A stretch of 64,000 nucleotides of DNA from positions 357,339 to 421,338 of the forward strand of contig OX638329.1 of assembly GCA_951812755.1 (NCBI GenBank). The letters run 5' to 3'. Below, piece by piece: positions 1,786-8,358 of the stretch (positions within the stretch are counted from its first letter, which is position 1; each line of letters starts with the position of its first letter). The position numbers and the translations under genes were made by a program. The notes beneath the pieces were generated by a model. The model made no database searches, was not told the DNA's origin, and saw only the letters and a list, made by a program, of their open reading frames with translations. The stretch is from an uncultured Latescibacterota bacterium. Its GTDB lineage: Bacteria; Latescibacterota; UBA2968.

Positions 1786-2196
1786 ATGCCTCCTGTAATC
1801 AATTTCAAAGGAAAAAATGATGGACACACTCGATGTGCGAGTAATCCCATGTCTCCAAATGAAGCTGTAGATGAGATCAGGAAGTATCTTGAGTGCGAAC
1901 ATATATACAAGATCTATCCAACACCGACAACTTGGCCTATACTGTTGTCAATCCTCGGGCAATACCCTGTTATCGGGCAAGATATTCACGATTTGCATCT
2001 TGCTGCTACCATGCTTTCTAATGGTATAAAGAAGATATATACCTTTAATGCCAAGGATTTTGAACCGATTCCGGGAATCAAAGTCCTGGATCCTGAAGCA
2101 ATTGACTTTATAGAAAGTCAGGAGTACGACGAAGACCTGGAACAAGAATATAAAGAAGAGCCGGAAGATAATGAGACAGCACAGCAGAGTAATTAA
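1786..2196 (+). pseudogene. Remnant of a PIN-domain protein (C-terminal half)
   Basis: The segment from about residue 22 (NPMSPNEAVDEI) through DIHDLHLAATMLSNGIKKI to FNAKDFEPIPGI matches the second half of VapC-like PIN ribonucleases, including the D-x-H-D-x-H-L block and the late acidic residue. The first half, with the catalytic Asp of the opening strand, is missing. A stop codon lies just upstream in frame, so no longer start is possible. The first 20 residues look unrelated and the last 30 form an acidic tail. Most likely a decayed toxin gene; a new short protein is possible. No antitoxin gene lies beside it. Confidence 0.55.
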
Positions 2197-3105: not shown

Positions 3106-3437
3106 TTAGTGACCACAGACCTTCCAAACTTCCGAGTTCAAATGGCTTGGTCACTTTCGTATATAATTCCAAAAAACAGGGACGCATCTGACTGGGGGTA
3201 AAAACAATCGAACACACGTTAATTCCCTACACGGGCGACGGTTCGATGGGTCATGTTAATAAACAAATTATCCTATATATGCAGCAATGTCAATTTATCT
3301 GGACAATAGTACACTCTCCTGTTTCCCTGTGGAAGAGGTCCTTAAATGTTACATTCACATTTCAAGGCAAACGGATGTAAAATTCGCCTCCCGTTTTTTA
3401 CCCTTATAGTTATAGTTTTTCTTCTGATTATATTGAG
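3106..3437. other. Intergenic stretch with one candidate small ORF
   Basis: About 330 bases with no recognised gene family. It contains a possible 39-codon plus-strand ORF listed separately, and otherwise only AT-rich sequence. No tRNA, clear repeat or riboswitch was seen. Confidence 0.4.
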
Positions 3438-3465
3438 CTATTCTTCATCCTCATCATTACTGTAA
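3346..3465 (+). CDS. Candidate 39-residue membrane peptide
   Basis: The reading frame starts MLHSHFKANGCKIRL and continues with a hydrophobic run (FFTLIVIVFLLIILSY) long enough for one membrane helix, then a serine-rich tail. An AGAGG ribosome-like site lies about 9 bases upstream. The last 28 bases overlap the convergent DUF1508-like gene. No homology is recognised, so this may be a chance ORF. Confidence 0.25.
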   Translation: MLHSHFKANGCKIRLPFFTLIVIVFLLIILSYSSSSSLL

Positions 3466-3632
3466 CGTATCTCTGTATCGCGGGTAACGTCTTTTAATGT
3501 AAGAACTTCTTGTTCGCAAGCCATTTTGCTCAGACAATCGGAAGATTTAACGAACACGAAATCATCCTTCTCGCGCCTAAGCTCCCAATACCAGTAATGA
3601 CTATTATGGCTTTTGTAGATGTAGAAATACAT
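3438..3632 (-). CDS. DUF1508/YegP-like small protein
   Basis: A 64-residue protein beginning MYFYIYKSHNSHYWYWELRR. This resembles the opening strand of DUF1508/YegP domains, which typically read F-x-I-Y-K-D-x-x-G-x-x-R-W-x-L, and the CEQEV segment fits their helix start. YegP-like proteins are small alpha-beta domains of uncertain function. An AAGGAAA ribosome site precedes the ATG. It lies downstream of the kinase/phosphatase/vWA genes on the same strand, with a 72-base gap. Confidence 0.5.
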   Translation of the reverse strand: MYFYIYKSHNSHYWYWELRREKDDFVFVKSSDCLSKMACEQEVLTLKDVTRDTEIRYSNDEDEE

Positions 3633-3704
3633 GTTTTCCTTGTCATTTAGGTTCCGTGTGTGCTACGGTGTAGAAGTAGCTCGTGATCTACCGCCTTTTA
3701 CGAT

Positions 3705-4664
3705 TTACGAAAGAAGCATTTTTATGGCCCGTATGTGCCTTCTAACCGTCCTCTCAGAAAGCCCTACAACCTCAGACACCGCCTGAACTTGTAAGCCTTG
3801 CCTATAGCCTTCCAAAATCGCAAGACGACTCCGAAGTCCGCGAATGTTCTTACTTCCAAGAAGTTCCATCTGAAAGGCCGCAGATTTTTTACCCAACGCG
3901 TCCATATCAACGCGTACGCGTCGCAATACTGCAAGAGAACAATCGTCTAAGGTGCGATTGATAAGCAAGGGCATGGCTGACTCTTGAATAGCTTCTCGGA
4001 CATCTTTAGACGTCTGTTCGTCAAGCCATAGGAGAATCTTGCTAAGCGCGGGGGCCAGCGAGCCTTCACGTCGCTGGTAGAGACTTTCGGCAGCACCGTC
4101 TGACATGATTGCGAAACCGCTGTAGTCATCCTGTGGTTTCTTTGCGATACGAAGGTGTTCCTTCGCCCGACTTGAAGTGAGAAACACCGTCTCGTTCGCA
4201 AACTCGCCGCGTACCGGTTCGATCAAGACTTCTGATCTACTGCCTCGAAATGCCGCTACAATCCCATCTCCGAGACTACCCGCGATAAAAATATCCCCAG
4301 CGACAGCAACGAAGGCCAGGGTTGCAGCGAGTTCGGCGACAGAACATTTCAACGCCTTTGCTCGCTTAATCATCTCTGATCGGCAGGCTACAAGGACCCG
4401 CTCTTTAACGTCCTCAGGATCGCTCCAAGGCGCAGTCTCTCGAAGAACTTGAGTTACAACCTCAACGGCACCTGTAGCACCCTGCTCGGAATGCCTCGCC
4501 GACCCAGCCCCATCGGACACGACGATGACCGCGACATCATCTTCCAGTGACACGCCAGAGACATCCTGACAAGGCAGACCTTTTGTAACATGTCCTCGCC
4601 CCGCCGTTGACACCGCAGTGCCCATCCAGCGACATAGTGACATATTTGACCAATCGCTCCCCAT
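3705..4664 (-). CDS. PP2C-family Ser/Thr phosphatase with C-terminal HTH (TerY-P triad)
   Basis: A 319-residue protein from the ATG two bases after the vWA stop codon. A longer reading needs a TTG start overlapping that gene. Residues 1-245 are a PP2C_2-type metal-dependent phosphatase: PCQD (metal Asp, about 34), SDGAGSA (about 50), GSLGDGI, SDGAAES and LDDCSLAVL supply the usual acidic residues. The C-terminal 50 residues form a helix-turn-helix (VSEVVGLSERTVRRHIRAIK) that I do not know as standard for TerY-P phosphatases. Predicted role is to reverse phosphorylation by the adjacent kinase; the HTH suggests DNA binding, which is inference. Confidence 0.85.
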   Translation of the reverse strand: MGSDWSNMSLCRWMGTAVSTAGRGHVTKGLPCQDVSGVSLEDDVAVIVVSDGAGSARHSEQGATGAVEVVTQVLRETAPWSDPEDVKERVLVACRSEMIKRAKALKCSVAELAATLAFVAVAGDIFIAGSLGDGIVAAFRGSRSEVLIEPVRGEFANETVFLTSSRAKEHLRIAKKPQDDYSGFAIMSDGAAESLYQRREGSLAPALSKILLWLDEQTSKDVREAIQESAMPLLINRTLDDCSLAVLRRVRVDMDALGKKSAAFQMELLGSKNIRGLRSRLAILEGYRQGLQVQAVSEVVGLSERTVRRHIRAIKMLLS

Positions 4665-4666
4665 CG

Positions 4667-5344
4667 CTACAAGGTACCCCAACCCTTGATACCATCTAAA
4701 TCAAGAGGAACTTCCTCGCCGGGAGTACTGGCCGAAACTCGTTGCACACTGGCACTTAACCACTCAAAGAACTCCCTGAACTTGAGTCCTTGGAGACGCA
4801 ATGGTGGTCGTGCCGGACTAAATTGACTCAGGATATCCATGTCTGCGTCATGACCAATTCCAATAGGGAACACTGACAGCTTCTTTTGATTCACCATGCT
4901 AACGACACGTTTGATAGCCTCATTGATGTCGTCGGTGGGCATACCATCCGTCATGAGTACCAACCAGGGTTGATAATAGTCAACGCCTGTATTTTGATAC
5001 TCCCGTTTGCGTTTTTCGAGAATAGCGAGCGCATCACAGACAGCTTCCCCCATCGGCGTGTTACCGTCCGCGACAAGAGGAGTTCTTGGTATCCTTTCTA
5101 CGGGACCAAAGTCAGCATACCTCTGAACGCCCTGATTACCAAAGGTCACAATGCTGATTTCTGCAGAATAGCGTGCAATCTCGTCGTCGAAAACGGATTC
5201 ATAGAAGAGTGCCACACCCTCCATAAGCTCTCTGATCGGTTCGCCGCTCATTGAGTAACTCGTGTCAAGGCAGAGTGTGATTGGAACCCGTGGCGTGGGA
5301 TTCTCAATTAAGTCTTCTGTATCCAAGACAAGTTCGTTAGCCAT
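4667..5344 (-). CDS. TerY-like vWA domain protein (TerY-P triad)
   Basis: A 225-residue von Willebrand A domain protein. The MIDAS metal site is complete: DTSYS (Asp27, Ser29, Ser31), the Thr of GNTPMG, and the Asp of MTDGMPTDD. VSVFPIGIGHDADMDIL-like segments match TerY. TerY proteins are known from tellurium-resistance and stress loci, where a vWA protein, a PP2C phosphatase and a kinase form a conserved triad; the vWA is thought to serve as a scaffold. An AGGGGG ribosome site lies 7 bases before the ATG. Its stop is two bases from the phosphatase start and the kinase lies 31 bases upstream, so the three are one operon. Confidence 0.88.
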   Translation of the reverse strand: MANELVLDTEDLIENPTPRVPITLCLDTSYSMSGEPIRELMEGVALFYESVFDDEIARYSAEISIVTFGNQGVQRYADFGPVERIPRTPLVADGNTPMGEAVCDALAILEKRKREYQNTGVDYYQPWLVLMTDGMPTDDINEAIKRVVSMVNQKKLSVFPIGIGHDADMDILSQFSPARPPLRLQGLKFREFFEWLSASVQRVSASTPGEEVPLDLDGIKGWGTL

Positions 5345-5375
5345 AAATTCCCCCTAAAAAAGAGACTCTAATAAT

Positions 5376-7343
5376 TTATTTTTTTAACAAAGCATAGAGT
5401 TTGTTTATTTGTTCAACAAGGCTTGACTGTTGTGATGTCGAAGTGTAGGGTCGTTGGCCAGATGAGTTAGTGTTCACCTTATATGCAGGGCTTCTTCTAT
5501 TAGGGCGTTGTTTATGGAAACAGTCCCCGCACATTGTATGTTCGTCCTTGAATGCGGGGAAGTCTTTACCACAGCGAACACAAGAACGCAAAATACTGCG
5601 AAAGCAGTCCCCGCACATTGTATGTTCGTCCTTGAAAGGACCGAAGCCTTTGCCACAGGTACTACAAATACGCCATGTGCCTCCCCGCTTCTCAACTTGC
5701 TCCTGGGTGAGTTGCTTAAACCCTTTTGGAAACGGATCGTCGGAAACATATTTCTTAACAAGATAATTTTCGTACAGATGCATGAGTTCCTGCCAATCAG
5801 CGACAGTCAGGCGATCTTTATCGGAGAAAACCTGATGAAATGCTTTCTTCATGCAATAGGGCAAATGGCTGAACATGAAGCGCCAAGGACCAGCTGGTAC
5901 CCCTTGTGCGCCTTGGTCATCTCGTGGGTAAGGGAAATGCTGCGTTCGGACATTTTTCGCCGGATCTGCGCCGCCCTGGTGTGCATAGGGTGGCTTACCT
6001 GGGTGCAAGAGCATGAACACGAGCGTAGCGACCGCGAAGTATTCGGCCTCCGCTGTTCGCAATGTGGAGCGCAAGGCCTTCCCGTATAACTCGGGAGCAA
6101 GGAAAGTGGCCACACCTACTGGACATGGGAAGCCTTCTACCTGGTAGCTGTCGCAATCCACGAAGAATACAGACGATTCGTTCTTCACGAGAATATTTCT
6201 CGCGTTGATGTCGCCCATCCGCACGTTTAATGAGTGCAGGTAAGCAATAGCGTCGAGAATCGTAGAAGTGAGTTGCACTAAGTGTAAGCGTGTCCAGTTG
6301 GGGAACGTCTTCTGCAATAGTGGTTTAATAAAGACCGATCGCTGGAGTTCCTTGCCTTGAGCTTTGGGCATCAAATAGCCGATGATCTCATCATGGGAAT
6401 TGTAGGCCAAAGAAACAGGCCAGCAAATCGCGGGATGGCGGACTTCTCGCGAGGTCATCAGCTTGATCTTGTCAATGGTAAACCGTTTAAGGCGATCACG
6501 ATGATAGACCTTGCATACGAGGTTGTTATCGGTTTCATAGGTGATACCCTCGCCTCCGCGTCCGAGTTCGAGACCAAGACGTAGATGGACACCCTTCGCG
6601 TCCCTCACGCTATCACCTTCCTTTGGAATCCATCTGATTTTAACAGAAGTCTCGTCGAGCTGTATTGCACGTTTCCGGATCTCAAAAGGGATTATAGAGG
6701 ACTTCCTCACCTTGCTCTGCGGAGGGCTTTTTTGTCTCCCACGGGTCTCTCTTGCACCCGAAAAACCTGGAGTCACCGACAAAAACCCATCAGCGGAGTC
6801 GGACTGATGATACTTGACTCCGTTCGGATAGATGGGGTCAAGCGTCCAACGCATAGGGTCGCCGCGACCCCCTACTCGGAATGCGTCAATGCCCTGAATC
6901 TTATCCACAGCATCGCTGTTATTCAGGGAGAGAATTTCTTTTGCGAGACTCCGGTCCTGAGTGATGAGGATTAACCGGTACTTGAGTCGGAAGCGAGTGA
7001 AGATAGTTTGGAACAGGTTATCAGCAAAGCTCCCGTCGTCGTCTTCGCCAAATATTTCGGCACTATCCTCATCTACCAGCCCTTTCACCAACTTCCTTGC
7101 AACTTGTGCTTGGCGGGCAGTGGTATTGCCCCTATGATCTGCCAGCCGGTCAAGTTCTTCAATCACTGACTTCGGCACGATGACGAAACGCACGCCATTA
7201 TTGCGAAGGGTCGGTACGAGGTAACTCCACATGAAAGTTGCTGAGGCATCCTCCATCATAAGGCTACTGGTATCTATGAAAACTCGCGTGTTCTTTGACC
7301 ATAGTGGATAGCGTTTTGTATTTCTATTAAAGATATTTAACAT
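5376..7343 (-). CDS. PIN nuclease domain - protein kinase - double zinc ribbon fusion (TerY-P triad)
   Basis: A 655-residue protein from the ATG preceded by AGGTG. Residues 18-160 form a PIN domain: FIDTSS (Asp24), IEELD, the Asp of FADNLF and TQDRSLA supply the acidic metal site, like PhoH-associated PIN domains. A basic linker follows. Residues 255-540 are a eukaryotic-like kinase: glycine loop GRGGEGITYE, VCKVY lysine, catalytic GDINARN, and DCDSYQ in place of DFG, which is usual for TerY-P kinases. Two near-identical C4 zinc ribbons (CSTCGKGF...CGDC and CVRCGKDF...CGDC) lie at about 565-620. The first gene of the triad operon. The kinase plus zinc ribbon is known; the PIN fusion suggests that RNA or DNA cleavage is the regulated output. 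Confidence 0.85.
   Translation of the reverse strand: MLNIFNRNTKRYPLWSKNTRVFIDTSSLMMEDASATFMWSYLVPTLRNNGVRFVIVPKSVIEELDRLADHRGNTTARQAQVARKLVKGLVDEDSAEIFGEDDDGSFADNLFQTIFTRFRLKYRLILITQDRSLAKEILSLNNSDAVDKIQGIDAFRVGGRGDPMRWTLDPIYPNGVKYHQSDSADGFLSVTPGFSGARETRGRQKSPPQSKVRKSSIIPFEIRKRAIQLDETSVKIRWIPKEGDSVRDAKGVHLRLGLELGRGGEGITYETDNNLVCKVYHRDRLKRFTIDKIKLMTSREVRHPAICWPVSLAYNSHDEIIGYLMPKAQGKELQRSVFIKPLLQKTFPNWTRLHLVQLTSTILDAIAYLHSLNVRMGDINARNILVKNESSVFFVDCDSYQVEGFPCPVGVATFLAPELYGKALRSTLRTAEAEYFAVATLVFMLLHPGKPPYAHQGGADPAKNVRTQHFPYPRDDQGAQGVPAGPWRFMFSHLPYCMKKAFHQVFSDKDRLTVADWQELMHLYENYLVKKYVSDDPFPKGFKQLTQEQVEKRGGTWRICSTCGKGFGPFKDEHTMCGDCFRSILRSCVRCGKDFPAFKDEHTMCGDCFHKQRPNRRSPAYKVNTNSSGQRPYTSTSQQSSLVEQINKLYALLKK
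5521..5636 (-). repeat. 32-bp direct repeat encoding the duplicated zinc ribbon
   Basis: Positions 5521-5552 and 5605-5636 are identical over 32 bases and are spaced 84 bases (28 codons) apart. They encode the FKDEHTMCGDCF part of each zinc ribbon. Identity at synonymous sites points to a recent internal duplication or gene conversion. Confidence 0.85.
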
Positions 7344-7352
7344 ACTTCGCAC

Positions 7353-7596
7353 CTGTATAAATCATCCATGAAATCGCTCCTTTAAATCCGTAACTATCTA
7401 CAAAAACAGGTAATTATCGTTAAATTGACGGATAAACTGAAAACGCGATAGTGAGGGTATGCAGCCCAGCCTCATCAGGGATGGCTTTCAAAAATTCCCT
7501 CAATGTATGCACGGTTGTTCCCAAACGTAATTTTTTTATTGTAGAATATAATCTTACGTGATGTGCCAAGAAAAGACTTGATAAAATTTGTGTACG
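7353..7596. other. Intergenic gap between the triad operon and the HicA-like gene
   Basis: About 240 AT-rich bases upstream of the PIN-kinase start and downstream of the HicA-like stop. It must contain the promoter of the triad operon, but I found no convincing -35/-10 pair, repeat or operator. Confidence 0.3.
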
Positions 7597-7884
7597 CTAC
7601 GGTGTCGCAATAATATCTTCGTCAAGCAGATGACTGTAATAGTCCGTTTTAGACATGTTACATAACGCAATTTCCTGATATTGGCTTTTTGTGACGTGTA
7701 ATTGATCACAAAATTTTTTCAAGAGTCCATGTCCGATATGGTCATTACCACGGCTTACAGTCGTTTTTAAAACTAACTGTCCTGTTGATGAGGATGTGAG
7801 TTTCCGTATTTCATGCTTTCCCCCTTCACTTTTAACAAATCCGAGTTTTGTAAGTACCTTCCTTCGGTGTTCTTTTAAGTTCAT
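7597..7884 (-). CDS. HicA-like toxin candidate
   Basis: A 95-residue protein from MNLKEHRRKVL, whose ATG overlaps the upstream stop as ATGA. GGKHEIRKLTS carries the His of the HicA/YcfA fold, and VSRGNDHIGHGLLKKFCDQLHVTKSQY resembles the divergent HicA branch in which a GLL-x3-F segment follows. HicA proteins are double-stranded-RNA-binding-fold mRNA interferases. The partner directly upstream looks like HicB, the antitoxin, supporting the call. The protein is longer than canonical HicA (about 60-85) because of a C-terminal extension (LCNMSKTDYYSHLLDED). Family assignment is by pattern only. Confidence 0.6.
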   Translation of the reverse strand: MNLKEHRRKVLTKLGFVKSEGGKHEIRKLTSSSTGQLVLKTTVSRGNDHIGHGLLKKFCDQLHVTKSQYQEIALCNMSKTDYYSHLLDEDIIATP

Positions 7885-8297
7885 AAATTGAACGCCTTTT
7901 TTAAAAATATATGGCACTTTTTCTGATACGGAGAAACGTTGTCTTTGTATTCTTCAATGTCTTGAAGGTCATCGCGAACAATCGTGGCTAAATCATCTAA
8001 TGCGTCTTCCCAACTGTTATTGCTACCGGCGATAATGCTTGGGAAATCCTCAAAAAACACCGCCCAAGATCCATCTACAAATTCTTCAAAAGTAATAAAA
8101 TAATGTCCGCCAGGTAGTGGCAAATTAACCCTGGATATATGGATTGGTTTATCTTCTGTTTCTAGAACGAGATCCGGTTCTTCGCTGGAGATGCTATAAG
8201 CCTCCGGGTCTTCTCTCTCCGCAAATCGAGTTCTCCACGAATGATAAACCAACCGAGAAGCAGTATTTTCCTCTGGTGGATTCACCATAGCAGCCAT
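7881..8297 (-). CDS. HicB-like antitoxin candidate
   Basis: A 138-residue protein with AGGAGG placed 7 bases before the ATG. Residues 75-115 (GSWAVFFEDFPSIIAGSNNSWEDALDDL) match the partial RNase H-like fold of HicB, where a strand with a conserved FPD/FPS turn is followed by a helix rich in acidic residues. No DNA-binding HTH or ribbon-helix-helix is evident at the C-terminus; the first 60 residues are unrelated to HicB. Translational coupling (ATGA) to the HicA-like gene supports a toxin-antitoxin pair with antitoxin first, the reverse of the usual hicA-hicB order. Confidence 0.55.
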   Translation of the reverse strand: MAAMVNPPEENTASRLVYHSWRTRFAEREDPEAYSISSEEPDLVLETEDKPIHISRVNLPLPGGHYFITFEEFVDGSWAVFFEDFPSIIAGSNNSWEDALDDLATIVRDDLQDIEEYKDNVSPYQKKCHIFLKKAFNL

Positions 8298-8358
8298 GTC
8301 ATAACCTCCTCTGCGGTGGAATAATTATGCGATTTCAAAAGATTGGGATATATATAAA

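Follow-up and report, generated by a model that had tools for sequence, protein, structure and literature searches.

The 64,000-nucleotide window analysed here (contig OX638329.1 of assembly GCA_951812755.1, positions 357,339-421,338, forward strand; an uncultured Latescibacterota bacterium) carries an operon which, by its predicted domains, is a TerY-P triad as defined in PMC11090510: a TerY-like vWA protein, a PP2C phosphatase and a kinase that bears a zinc ribbon at its C-terminus, hypothesised there to form a metal-sensing phosphoswitch. What sets it apart is the fusion of a PIN domain to the N-terminus of the kinase, a variant of the known triad that is more general than the initial annotation of this DNA supposed. 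With moderate confidence, we read the operon as a TerY-P-type phosphoswitch with a PIN effector built into its kinase, probably serving phage defence or stress arrest. The three genes lie head to tail on the minus strand, with the PIN-kinase first, then the vWA protein and then the PP2C phosphatase, which ends in a helix-turn-helix (HTH):

5376..7343, minus strand: PIN-kinase-zinc-ribbon protein, 655 amino acids (ATG at 7343, stop at 5376; Pkinase 2.2e-8)
6873..7292, minus strand: PIN domain, residues 18-157 of that protein, with the acids D24, E63, D108 and D130 (profiles, model and conservation)
5709..6626, minus strand: Ser/Thr kinase domain, residues 240-545 (Pkinase 2.2e-8; conserved kinase residues)
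5520..5666, minus strand: double zinc ribbon, residues 560-608, with eight cysteines (DZR_2 5.5e-3, below the cut-off)
4667..5344, minus strand: TerY-like vWA protein, 225 amino acids (VWA 1.7e-8; intact residues of the metal ion-dependent adhesion site, MIDAS)
3705..4664, minus strand: PP2C phosphatase with C-terminal HTH, 319 amino acids (PP2C_2 5.1e-44)
3726..3833, minus strand: HTH at the C-terminus of the phosphatase (HTH_23 1.2e-5; tail alone 2.3e-6)

The Pkinase, VWA, PP2C_2 and HTH_23 matches each exceed the Pfam curated cut-off. The initial annotation had described a tight operon of the TerY-P type, and its coordinates, order, strand and gaps (31 bases between the kinase stop and the vWA start, 2 bases between the vWA stop and the PP2C ATG) were all confirmed. 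The assignment to the triad is borne out by Pfam and by the zinc ribbon at the C-terminal end of the kinase, a defining TerY-P feature which that annotation had overlooked.

Regarding the PIN domain, the PIN_9 and PIN_4 matches were below the Pfam cut-off when the full-length protein was scanned, and PIN_4 passed it when residues 1-162 were scanned alone (23.2 vs 21.9 bits). PIN_4 was also matched by 38 of the 42 homologous N-termini, and a PDB search with a profile built from the 42 PIN sequences retrieved MJ1533, Utp24 and SMG6/EST1A, each by its PIN domain. The AlphaFold2 model of the N-terminal region (predicted local distance difference test, pLDDT, 87.6; predicted template modelling score, pTM, 0.83) had PIN domains as its top structural matches in the PDB, namely the archaeal AF0591 and MJ1533 and the human SMG6/EST1A. 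In the 42 sequences D24, T25, E63 and D108 are the sole invariant columns and D130 is near-invariant; among the fused proteins the acids are kept in 41/41 (D24), 41/41 (E63), 42/42 (D108) and 41/42 (D130). This conservation is therefore far from chance and, together with the structural matches, rules out a false PIN call. Hence, the N-terminal PIN with all four acidic residues, which had been proposed at residues 18-160, stands: PIN matches were found there, and the region is firmly assigned as a PIN fold with an apparently catalytic site, its nuclease activity being a prediction.

The other active sites are conserved as well. K278, D378, N383 and D396 of the kinase are invariant in 37 fusions, and the eight ribbon cysteines are invariant in an alignment of four sequences from four phyla (the window, Fusobacterium, Lysinibacillus and Paenarthrobacter). 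Alignment across four phyla also showed that the MIDAS residues D27, S29, S31, T96 and D133 of the vWA protein, all intact in the window, and the residues D34, D51, G52, D189, D240 and D241 of the PP2C protein are invariant. Since the kinase, MIDAS and PP2C metal residues are invariant, all the enzymes of the triad look active.

The architecture is not unique to the window genome. Scanning 84,980 species genomes yielded 68 loci. By profiles built in this analysis, a kinase of this family with a fused or adjacent PIN is present at 50 loci, the window and the plasmid loci included. The set holds 42 PIN-kinase fusions and reaches 50 loci once split PIN genes are counted, and both the vWA and the PP2C genes are present at 47 of the 50; the exceptions are L021 and L073, whose contigs end inside the operon, and the divergent locus L040. 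These loci belong to about ten phyla: Bacillota, Actinomycetota, Pseudomonadota, Campylobacterota, Spirochaetota, Synergistota, Fibrobacterota, Binatota, Fusobacteriota and that of the window itself. A further record, from Saccharimonadota, falls in a tight group with Selenomonadales, which may point to an error of binning. In the plasmid search, Fusobacterium vincentii and Lysinibacillus capsici matched over residues ~18-611, and the Paenarthrobacter match covered the kinase of a protein that carries its own PIN domain; the vWA and PP2C genes follow in all of them. Four genera (Campylobacter, Fibrobacter, Slackia and Adlercreutzia) encode the PIN unfused, in a gene of its own immediately upstream of the kinase gene. 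The initial annotation had spoken of a rebuilt triad; the locus is not a one-off, as the fusion recurs in about ten phyla.

Some relatives show further features of their own. The Lysinibacillus plasmid operon includes a fourth gene (L009:12099-12755) whose product weakly matches a J-domain at its C-terminus (DnaJ 9.4e-4, below the cut-off). Two divergent triads lie on an Albidovulum contig (L013:364-7634), the kinase of one being fused to a PIN and that of the other having no recognised PIN, and one Campylobacter gastrosuis contig carries the operon, with its separate PIN gene, at two places (L046 and L047) with identical gene coordinates and profile scores.

No PIN-fused TerY-P kinase was found described in the papers searched, although a mention in Anantharaman et al. 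2012 or Gao et al. 2020 is possible. The architecture is widespread, but it was not found catalogued as a TerY-P form. According to the account of Anantharaman et al. 2012 given in PMC11090510, the zinc-ribbon TerY-P systems likewise encode a vWA protein, a PP2C and a zinc-ribbon Ser/Thr kinase in one operon; the window operon differs from what is reported there by the N-terminal PIN of its kinase and the C-terminal HTH of its phosphatase. In the cases described, nucleases are separate genes, such as CoCoNuT components. Antiphage versions carry an OB-fold in place of the zinc ribbon (PMC11090510), and the TerY-P-like systems of Gao et al. 2020, as summarised in PMC11090510 and PMC7699616, share the vWA, phosphatase and kinase and act as stand-alone phage defence. 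The vWA, PP2C and kinase genes are also found together in Escherichia coli as YegL-PphC-YegI, where PphC dephosphorylates YegI (PMC13232886). The kinase domain of YegI is ~28% identical to that of the window; however, YegI is membrane-bound, no PIN is reported in it, and yegJ or a transposon may split the E. coli genes.

On the other hand, a PIN nuclease under kinase control is not wholly new. In VapKSC (PMC13373217, 2026) the release of a PIN toxin is attributed to a GHKL kinase, and the operon gives protection against a phage, two traits that the window system may share. VapKSC differs in its GHKL kinase, its STAS antitoxin and its separate VapC, and lacks the PP2C, the vWA and the fusion. 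Pfam gave no STAS or GHKL match in the window triad, whose kinase has the eukaryotic-type fold, so the triad is not a VapKSC system. In KKP, as described in PMC11341870, a kinase/phosphatase balance gives phage defence on mobile elements. The pairing and the mobile setting are shared with the window, but the module described there has two kinases and neither a vWA protein nor a nuclease, whereas the window operon has a single kinase gene and is therefore not of the two-kinase type.

The operon is not already catalogued in PADLOC either, where the three window proteins gave weak cross-matches at most. The PADLOC TerY model did not match the window vWA protein. When it was applied to two plain-triad controls, it missed one and matched the other with an E-value of only 1.8e-3; because these controls fail or nearly fail, the miss would reflect a gap in the library and does not speak for or against membership.

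Concerning its genomic setting, the triad lies in an insert whose site is empty in two congeners:

3299..8342: insert of ~5.0 kb with the triad and a HicAB-like pair; site empty in G003 (L105) and G007 (L104)

In same-site alignments with these two genomes, the sequence passes from window base ~3298 almost directly to ~8343. The slot is also without the insert in G009, whose S41 peptidase is the closest among the congeners (97% identical), and all nine congeners examined have kept the transporter and the S41 peptidase that flank the site. The PIN fusion was not found in any other genome in a search of 64 genomes of the phylum. Comparison of the insert ends revealed no shared direct or inverted repeats. 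No restriction or DNA-processing genes were recognised in the insert, which holds just the triad and the HicAB-like pair; such an association is frequent in the TerY-P literature and is not a core requirement.

Moreover, the triad is plasmid-borne in some relatives. A single-sequence scan of viral contigs returned nothing, and an alignment-based scan found one prophage with the triad (L108:441-16371), where genes for a gene-transfer-agent-like tail protein and a CHAP lysin are followed by the triad and then by a type VI retron reverse transcriptase (RT; PADLOC RT_VI 2.1e-76), with an integrase nearby. This gene order, a single case, suggests that the triad may travel as defence cargo.

Other observations concern the same slot. 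At 7597-7917 and 7881-8297 (minus strand), within the insert and upstream of the PIN-kinase, a HicA-like gene (HicA_toxin E 0.0024, below the cut-off) stands behind a possible HicB-like partner without notable Pfam match. A remnant of a VapC-type PIN gene, its 5' part missing, lies at 1786-2196 (plus strand), and G009 has an intact version of 191 amino acids, with 352 bases 100% identical. In G002, G003 and G007 this slot holds VapBC-like pairs, which makes it a gene-exchange hotspot. The ~140 bases that border the insert on its left (3155-3298) are conserved at this hotspot in congeners (L102, L104 and L105); they are single-copy in the window genome and represent a hotspot segment common to the congeners, not a transposable repeat.

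These data bear on whether the triad could be a housekeeping or stress regulator of RNA processing, not a defence system, in which the PIN would trim or degrade cellular RNA under phosphorylation. Such a role would agree with the literature that ties TerY-P triads to chemical stress and metals (PMC11090510), and ordinary metabolic genes are frequent among the neighbours of the relatives. However, the patchiness within the genus, the plasmids, the prophage and the small insert fit an accessory system better, and we regard a housekeeping role as rather unlikely.

Members in which the PIN is altered or missing are relevant to a different possibility. Pseudomonas and related Proteobacteria have a diverged N-terminal PIN, degraded in Pseudomonas itself and intact-looking in Roseateles L048 and in the prophage L108 (PIN_4 1.6e-11 and 2.3e-8, respectively), and the Treponema and Acholeplasmatales members are without PIN. 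The existence of PIN-less and PIN-degraded members would speak for a KKP-like kinase toxin, where the kinase, as the toxic effector, would act on host proteins with the PP2C as its antitoxin, and the PIN and zinc ribbon would mainly bind or sense RNA; KKP itself (PMC11341870) works in this way with kinases and a phosphatase. Nevertheless, no columns of the fused PIN are better conserved than its four catalytic acids, and mere RNA binding would not need them, so this explanation is unlikely. In the PIN-less Treponema triads (L063:6680-7960 and L066:6635-7957), a protein of ~430 amino acids with a QSK motif is encoded directly upstream of the kinase; it gave no Pfam match and, as a guess, might be a restriction-type nuclease.

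The phosphatase tail was also compared among relatives. The HTH which the initial annotation placed at the C-terminus of the phosphatase is supported by Pfam, and a homologous winged-helix tail occurs on the PP2C in about half of the loci. The window tail matches the profile of the relatives' PP2C tails marginally (E 0.024), and no HTH is recognisable in the PP2C of L012, the nearest relative (Binatia; kinase domain 76% identical). A search for an operator gave short inverted repeats only, none of them convincing. Because the tail is found in about half of the loci and is unrecognisable in the nearest relative, the transcriptional read-out once proposed for it is possible and weakly supported.

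Instead of the PP2C tail or besides it, a gene for a PIN-domain protein of ~300 amino acids lies upstream at 16 of the 50 loci (for example L008:6988-7896, L018:6952-7914 and L024:7623-8672, with 13 more loci). Those examined begin with an XRE-type HTH, and their PIN lacks catalytic acids; these proteins are likely regulators or antitoxin-like partners of the PIN-kinase. A phosphorylation-controlled toxin-antitoxin, in which a partner (this HTH-pseudoPIN protein in relatives, the vWA or PP2C protein in the window) would hold the PIN inactive until the kinase phosphorylates it and releases the PIN, as in VapKSC (PMC13373217), would account for these genes and has that precedent, but it is improbable, given that the HTH-pseudoPIN gene is missing from the window and most relatives and that a covalent link joins PIN and kinase.

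Returning to the phosphoswitch with a built-in PIN effector, the kinase protein would carry its own effector, the N-terminal PIN endoribonuclease, and its zinc ribbon might contact nucleic acid or serve as a metal sensor. The vWA protein would be a metal-dependent scaffold or sensor, and the PP2C would reverse the phosphorylation made by the kinase and define the resting state. When a trigger (plausibly infection by a phage, or some other stress) tips the balance between kinase and phosphatase, the fused kinase would autophosphorylate or change its conformation, which could switch the PIN RNase on and end in abortive infection or growth arrest. Autoregulation of the operon by the PP2C HTH is a guess. 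The domains, their conserved active sites, the conserved operon and its mobility are observed here; from them we infer nuclease activity, RNA as the substrate, phosphorylation as the control with its sign, and a role in defence. This reading is favoured by the PIN fold with strictly conserved acids in fusions of about ten phyla, by the retained kinase, PP2C and vWA residues, by the triad kept together at nearly all loci with a TerY-P-like zinc ribbon, and by the unfused PIN that still sits directly upstream of the kinase in four genera. The mobility (the insert, the plasmids and the prophage slot beside a retron RT) is consistent with it, and KKP, VapKSC and PphC-YegI may serve as precedents.

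Other points weigh against it. The gating of the PIN by the kinase is something that we infer from their fusion alone, and the full-length AlphaFold2 model (mean pLDDT 83.1, pTM 0.59) does not resolve the packing between the domains; a fold search of this model against viral structures returned kinases alone and was uninformative. The triad can apparently work without a PIN, since this domain is degraded in Pseudomonas and absent in Treponema and Acholeplasmatales. Furthermore, among 114 scanned neighbours of the relatives, defence matches were scattered among ordinary, often metabolic genes (a raw count), so that the neighbourhood is not clearly a defence island and enrichment is not claimed.

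Ire1 and RNase L join a kinase domain and an RNase in one chain and have a stress or antiviral role. Their RNase is C-terminal, of the HEPN type and of an unrelated nuclease fold, so that the comparison with the PIN-kinase is an analogy only. By this analogy, and tentatively, the loci could represent an unnamed, widespread kinase-PIN family with Ire1/RNase L-like gating by the state of the kinase, set by the PP2C and the vWA protein, in a mobile antiphage system.

For the question of what TerY-P phosphorylation switches, a large subfamily with the nuclease built into the kinase offers a testable output, RNA cleavage dependent on the kinase and phosphatase, as well as simple point mutants. If the proposed phosphoswitch is true, the operon would be a compact three-gene candidate defence system that the PADLOC models do not recognise, and a bacterial counterpart of the kinase-RNase stress sensors. 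The Ire1/RNase L-like reading, if true, would mean a prokaryotic kinase-gated RNase in a single polypeptide.

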